Positions 1 through 57,693 of a stretch of 64,000 bases of DNA are shown in pieces. The stretch's first letter is position 1. Every line of letters begins with the position of its first letter. The notes under the pieces are model-generated. The model saw only the letters and a program-made list of their open reading frames with translations, searched no databases and was not told the origin of the DNA. Position numbers and translations under genes: made by a program. The DNA comes from Flavobacteriaceae bacterium (GTDB lineage: Bacteria > Bacteroidota > Bacteroidia > Flavobacteriales > Flavobacteriaceae), in NCBI GenBank assembly GCA_024763245.1, contig JANTFW010000003.1, positions 1 through 64,000 of the forward strand, written 5' to 3'.

Positions 1-96
1 AATTCACTCAAATTATCCAGATAGTTCTCATAAATTTGGATTGCCTATGGGCTAATTATCTGAAACTGTGAGCAAAGCTTAGATCGAACTCAGGTT
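1..96. repeat. Partial copy (right part, cut by the window edge) of a palindromic intergenic repeat
   Basis: Ungapped match to 57530-57625 with 90/96 identical bases by direct comparison. Confidence 0.9.
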
Positions 97-34730: not shown

Positions 34731-34891
34731 TAAAAAAACCTGCATTAAAAGGATTTAAAAACTCCATTCAGACAAGTTTAGGGCTAACGATGTGATCAAG
34801 TATCCGCTCAAAGACGGCTCGCTTTAACACATACGACTTACCCTTTTGAATAGAATCGTGTTGAGTTTCATAATCAAAAGTTAATGCAGGT
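34731..34891 (-). ncRNA. ssrS: 6S RNA-like (6S-Flavo type candidate)
   Basis: Closing stem ACCTGCATTAA/TTAATGCAGGT (34881-34891 with 34738-34748), further inner stems (AAACTC/GAGTTT, GGGTAA/TTAGCCC), T-run after the 3' stem, located between zapA and rny. Confidence 0.75.
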
Positions 34892-57101: not shown

Positions 57102-57466
57102 ACACAGAATTATTTTTGAGCGTACAAAAGTAGATAGTTTTTTTAAAAAACAAATTTTTTATTAAATTTTATAAAAAAAATATCCGTTACACCGAATTAT
57201 TTATGGGGCGCTTGGCATCTTGTTATACTTCTTTTTCATACCGTAACTAATTTTAGCCTTGGTAAAATAATCATTTCAGTAGTATCTGCCAAATGCACTA
57301 TATTTTTTGTTGGTAGCCGTTTTTATACCTCTAATTTATGTTAGGTTATATTTTTTTAACGCAAAAGAAATTAAGTTTATGTAGCTTGCATAACTATTTA
57401 ACTTTAGCCAGAATCAAAAAATGGGTCTATATATTTAAGTATAGGTTCAAATTGAAACTTACTTTG

Positions 57467-57625
57467 AACCTGAGTTCGACCTAAGATTTATCTCACAGAA
57501 AGTCAATAATTAGCCCATATACTTTCCCAAATTCACTCAAATTATCCAGATAGTTCTCTTAAATCTGGATTGCCTATAAGCTAATTATCTGAAACTCTGA
57601 GCAAAGCTTAGGTCGAACTCAGGTT
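57467..57625. repeat. Palindromic structured intergenic repeat (MITE/REP-like), about 159 bp
   Basis: Perfect 19-bp terminal inverted repeat AACCTGAGTTCGACCTAAG/CTTAGGTCGAACTCAGGTT, inner ATAATTAGC/GCTAATTAT and ATCCAGAT/ATCTGGAT pairs; second partial copy at 1-96. Confidence 0.88.
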
Positions 57626-57693
57626 TTGAAGTTAAAATGATAAATTTCTGCACATATTACTATATAGAGATTTTCTAAATACAATATGTTTTT

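Follow-up and report, generated by a model that had tools for sequence, protein, structure and literature searches.

What is the 159-bp palindromic element that lies between the GH13 gene and topA, what moves it, and why is its fold kept? The window analyzed here, a stretch of 64,000 nucleotides, comprises bases 1-64000 of contig C3 from a 2.28-Mb genome in 142 contigs, taken as Lutibacter. The element occupies positions 57467-57625 on the plus strand, with GH13 upstream and topA downstream on the minus strand. The analysis below leads us to conclude, with high confidence, that it is a non-autonomous MITE, probably moved in trans by an IS982-family transposase, that the element is about 264 bp long with a Y-shaped fold, and that the window copy is a form that has lost one arm, arm A.

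Repeat searches reveal a perfect 19-bp inverted repeat at the element's boundaries, as the earlier note had claimed, with the left copy, AACCTGAGTTCGACCTAAG, at 57467-57485 (plus strand) and its perfect complement at 57607-57625 (minus strand). Allowing up to three mismatches, this repeat occurs three times in the window, where 0.02 occurrences are expected. The second paired block described before, ATAATTAGC/GCTAATTAT, is also present, as is the internal hairpin, ATCCAGAT/ATCTGGAT. By sequence and fold, the former make up the 5' side (57506-57514) and the 3' side (57580-57588) of the base of the second arm, arm B, and the latter its inner hairpin, ATCCAGAT...ATCTGGAT (57544-57570), all on the plus strand. 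The whole window element, which carries no ORF of note, folds at -54.3 kcal/mol (z = -8.7), and none of 200 shuffles equals this value. An 8-bp repeat at its left edge, GGTTCAAA/TTTGAACC, had been thought capable of an alternative fold; its letters are indeed there, but an alternative fold with the element is unsupported. We rejected this repeat as part of the element, as its left half and the TTTG of its right half are flanking DNA, the latter taking in the TTG target duplication described below. Other copies carry different flanks, and the repeat is therefore incidental.

A search of the genome with the element returned 53 matching pieces. Five complete copies of 260-267 bp each lie inside contigs, as do three truncated copies and the 159-bp window copy, and a further 19 contig ends are located within the element. 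Since one insertion may supply two contig ends, we give the number of insertions as a range, about 18-28; the assemblies are fragmented and break at these repeats, and all copy numbers are to be read as ranges. Both ends of contig C3 fall in MITE copies. One of these is the partial copy already noticed at positions 1-96 (plus strand; C3:1-96, 94% identity in the own-genome search), which is real: it is the right-hand part of a second copy, cut because the window starts at base 1 of the contig. The count is thus far above two, and the possibility of only two copies in an ancestral duplication falls away. In a congener (G004) we observed 142 matches to the terminal inverted repeat (TIR), most at contig ends; so many copies, mostly at contig ends, suggest a recent burst.

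Alignment to the five full within-contig copies reveals that a 102-bp segment flanked by two ATAAT repeats (GTCAATAAT...TTTCGATAAT-TAGCCC) is absent from the window copy, and that this segment is arm A. The deletion junction lies at the ATAAT direct repeat, at 57506-57511. Similarly, a copy on contig C98 is without part of arm A, gone between AGTAGATTT repeats, a 160-bp form (L241) has lost arm B, and the congener G004 holds a 50-bp form without either arm. The simplest reading of these arm losses is slippage across hairpins; the window copy would descend from a full copy whose arm A was lost between the ATAAT repeats, most likely through replication slippage across the hairpin.

The flanks are different at every MITE copy. 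In a first set of 32 homologous loci (36 rows, from which 4 spurious pairings were left out), 27 carry an exact 3-bp target duplication, against a chance of about 2% per locus. The base before the exact duplication is T in all 27 and the base after it is A in 25, which gives the target TNNNA. Duplication comparison places the two copies at the window element at 57464-57466 and 57626-57628, each reading TTG, or TTTGA if the start is set at ACC by the IS982 convention. With eight out-of-sample members added, the duplication is exact at 3 bp in 32 of 40 loci and at 5 bp in 29 of 40, the 5-bp reckoning following the usual IS982 practice of placing the element's start at ACC. Empty sites were sought for the insertion on contig C23 and not at the topA-GH13 locus, because GH13 does not lie beside topA in relatives. 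The C23 site is empty in three congeners (G005, G006, and G001), in which the flanking genes are adjacent with 64, 47, and 86 bp, respectively, between the aligned parts. None of 26 copies examined splits an ORF, and one overlaps an ORF end.

We therefore find the dispersed MITE family that the earlier note had proposed: short non-coding elements (159-267 bp) with 19-bp terminal inverted repeats, present in many intergenic copies with target-site duplications and with empty sites in relatives. The many copies at contig ends could also be read as a segmental duplication or an assembly artefact, which we regard as scarcely credible given the distinct flanks of each copy, the mostly exact duplications, and the empty sites in congeners; copies sit at contig ends because assemblies fail within the repeat. 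In a further reading, the element would be a regulatory RNA, or a terminator, domesticated to serve its neighbors, in keeping with its position 69 bp beyond the stop codon of GH13 and about 365 bp ahead of the start of topA, its strong RNA fold, and the covariation in its family. This we judge very improbable, as copies adjoin unrelated genes in all orientations, and in relatives GH13 does not adjoin topA, the match stopping shortly past the topA start without the element. Moreover, the element has no ORF of note and no Rfam family scores above the gathering threshold; the weak sub-threshold miRNA matches that Rfam returns simply reflect the long hairpin. Plasmid and phage collections gave no match to the element. 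Elsewhere in the window, a 6S-Flavo RNA at 34759-34866 on the minus strand scores above its Rfam gathering score.

The earlier note could not name what mobilizes the MITE, and here its ends are informative. Intact 1-kb IS982 elements, found in Flavobacteriaceae and, through a scan for the TIR, in other Bacteroidota, begin at both ends with AACCTGAGTTCGA or AACGTGAGTTCGA, and their first 13 bases are identical to those of the MITE. In all eight IS982 elements with an exact 3-bp duplication the target is T-NNN-A, and the two IS982 transposases scanned both lie above the NF033520 cut-off (E 2e-78 and 7e-83). The congener G004 carries IS982 remains: a 285-bp element with MITE-type ends encloses disrupted IS982 transposase sequence, and a decayed IS982 gene follows another copy. 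The MITE thus shares its ends with an autonomous transposon that is intact in other Bacteroidota and found only decayed in the genus. Since both ends and target are common to the MITE and IS982, an IS982-family transposase is probably the mobilizer. In the reaction that we infer from the observed ends, duplications, and empty sites, an IS982-family DDE transposase would recognize the AACCTGAGTTCGA ends of the MITE in trans and insert it at intergenic TNNNA sites, duplicating the site.

The seven genomes of the genus yielded no intact IS982. Strong IS982 matches occur in 39 of 400 Flavobacteriaceae genomes overall and in only 2 of the 15 that bear the MITE, with no clear enrichment; the mobilizer may have disappeared from these genomes, or the fragmented assemblies may omit it or have collapsed it. 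The IS982 transposase gene sits in separate 1-kb elements and not inside the MITE. We also considered the MITE interior as an internal deletion derivative of IS982, which is unsupported: only the ends are common, and comparison of the two interiors yields nothing beyond short AT-rich matches at about the level expected by chance. We therefore file the element as IS982-mobilized and not as a deletion derivative of IS982. The same genome also holds a C-terminal fragment that weakly resembles IS982 and lacks these ends (G000:C60:2035-2154, L129).

Similar ends were also observed on other elements. A second, unrelated MITE family of about 200 bp in the same genome (L088:1790-1997 on G000:C44 and L094:1328-1524 on G000:C101) has ends that resemble those of the first, GATGTGAG/AACCTGAG and AACGTGAG. 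The same ends enclose other interiors in Aquimarina and other records (L206, L276, L286, and L293) and in cyanobacteria (L201 and L202), and flank 59-bp palindromes (L239, L264, and L267). Many non-autonomous families appear to make use of these ends.

In all, 31-32 homologous elements make up the family to which the window copy belongs. Complete members measure close to 264 bp, and the elements derive from Lutibacter, other Flavobacteriaceae, Cyclobacteriaceae, and Bacteroidales. Beyond this genome, congeners carry related MITEs, whose distribution over other Bacteroidota is patchy. A model of arm A only, short-calibrated and with rough E-values, matches 15 of 400 Flavobacteriaceae genomes (11 of 238 genera); in a sample drawn across the phylum it matches 3 of 398, our own genome among them. 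Eight new loci fetched with this model lie between same-type ends 258-268 bp apart; six of these have the two-arm fold, one a partly different fold, and one a single long hairpin. Several other fetched matches have no recognizable end pair, and we therefore regard the family as patchy and some matches as weak or decayed.

Structurally, the single strand of the intact element, about 264 bp, is predicted to fold into a Y made of the terminal-repeat stem, arm A, and arm B. The minimum-energy folds of all 23 full-length members folded, which come from several Bacteroidota families, share one layout, two long arms on a terminal stem, to which some add a small central hairpin; the fold z-scores of three full members range from -9.7 to -13.5. 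In the alignment, 96.1% of cells are paired, compared with 34-51% when the partners are slid. Two-sided changes number 207 against 72 in shuffled alignments and occur in 32 of 66 pairs, a count that comes mainly from the terminal stem, arm A, and the arm-B tip, as the alignment of arm B is gap-shifted. None of 500 covariation shuffles reaches any observed value; relatedness inflates such shuffles, and the slid control and the out-of-sample loci weigh more. The fold is conserved, as covariation shows. An ACAG/CTGT block beside the ends is also strongly conserved. We note that both arm tips carry similar short palindromes, e.g., AATATCTAGATATT and TTAACCAGTTAG (alignment A1, columns 78-89 and 187-200), and that an old inverted duplication may have given rise to the two arms.

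Why the fold is conserved can be explained in two ways: the folded strand may aid the element's movement or survival, or palindrome-templated repair may match the arms. In the first case, the Y-shaped strand, as DNA or RNA, would itself be functional, helping the IS982 transposase or the host replication machinery to choose the MITE, a proposal that we put forward tentatively and with some doubt. In the second, the matching of arms and ends would be unselected, produced by template switching in the hairpin (quasipalindrome correction), and the covariation of a neutral MITE would be a by-product of mutation; this we take seriously, at somewhat less than an even chance. The two ends of the element bear on this question. 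The MITEs use all four bases at TIR position 15, yet the two ends of one MITE agree there in 37 of 37 elements, where shuffling the ends gives at most 62% agreement; the ends of the 1-kb IS982 elements, in contrast, agree in 8 of 14 (Fisher p = 0.00017 versus the MITEs, relatedness ignored). Because MITE ends always match and IS982 ends often do not, the matching points to the hairpin as its cause rather than the transposase. Such a contrast is expected if proximity drives matching, as templated correction would have it, and the arm-loss deletions between direct repeats likewise suggest replication stumbling on hairpins. However, the position-15 contrast does not separate templated correction from selection on the fold. 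Templated correction alone would not keep the two-arm layout and a length of about 264 bp across several Bacteroidota families, and does not account for the strongly conserved ACAG/CTGT block. Either way, quasipalindrome correction concerns the cause of the fold only and not the identity of the element as a MITE.

IS982-linked MITEs are a known kind. MITECca01 of Cardinium, about 240 bp and derived from ISCca4 (IS982), is described as lineage-specific, with parent remnants beside its left end (PMC9769881). The present element is likewise short, non-coding, and multi-copy, with IS982-type ends and a Bacteroidota host; in contrast, members of its family occur in several Bacteroidota families, and no similarity to the IS is seen in its interior. 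Members of the IS982 family have terminal repeats that start with AC and duplications of 2-10 bp (PMC7335449). The repeats of the MITE begin with AC after an outer A and its duplication length falls inside this range, and the Bacteroidota IS982 elements found here share its first 13 bases and target. Unlike them, the MITE has no transposase gene, measures 264 bp against about 1 kb, and has ends that always match at position 15.

MITEs of the ERIC, NEMIS/Correia, RUP, and BOX types are, like the present one, intergenic, palindromic, structured, and common to related species. By description they are set apart from it by their ends, mobilizers, and hosts. The earlier note had allowed that the element might belong to an already named repeat family, and our literature search found no publication with this TIR sequence or naming the element, and no matching MITE for Flavobacteria or Lutibacter. 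The family itself, its spread over Bacteroidota families, and its covarying branched interior therefore appear to be undescribed in the searchable literature.

For Lutibacter, these results name a likely mobilizer for an unannotated repeat that breaks assemblies, at 19 contig ends in this genome. The MITE also provides a small system in which to ask why the interior of some bacterial MITEs stays folded across great evolutionary distances, and the contrast between MITE and IS ends at position 15 separates the transposase's apparent need from the need, or the effect, of the hairpin. If the fold is functional, the MITE would spread as a structured parasite of IS982 and not as a degenerate copy of it.
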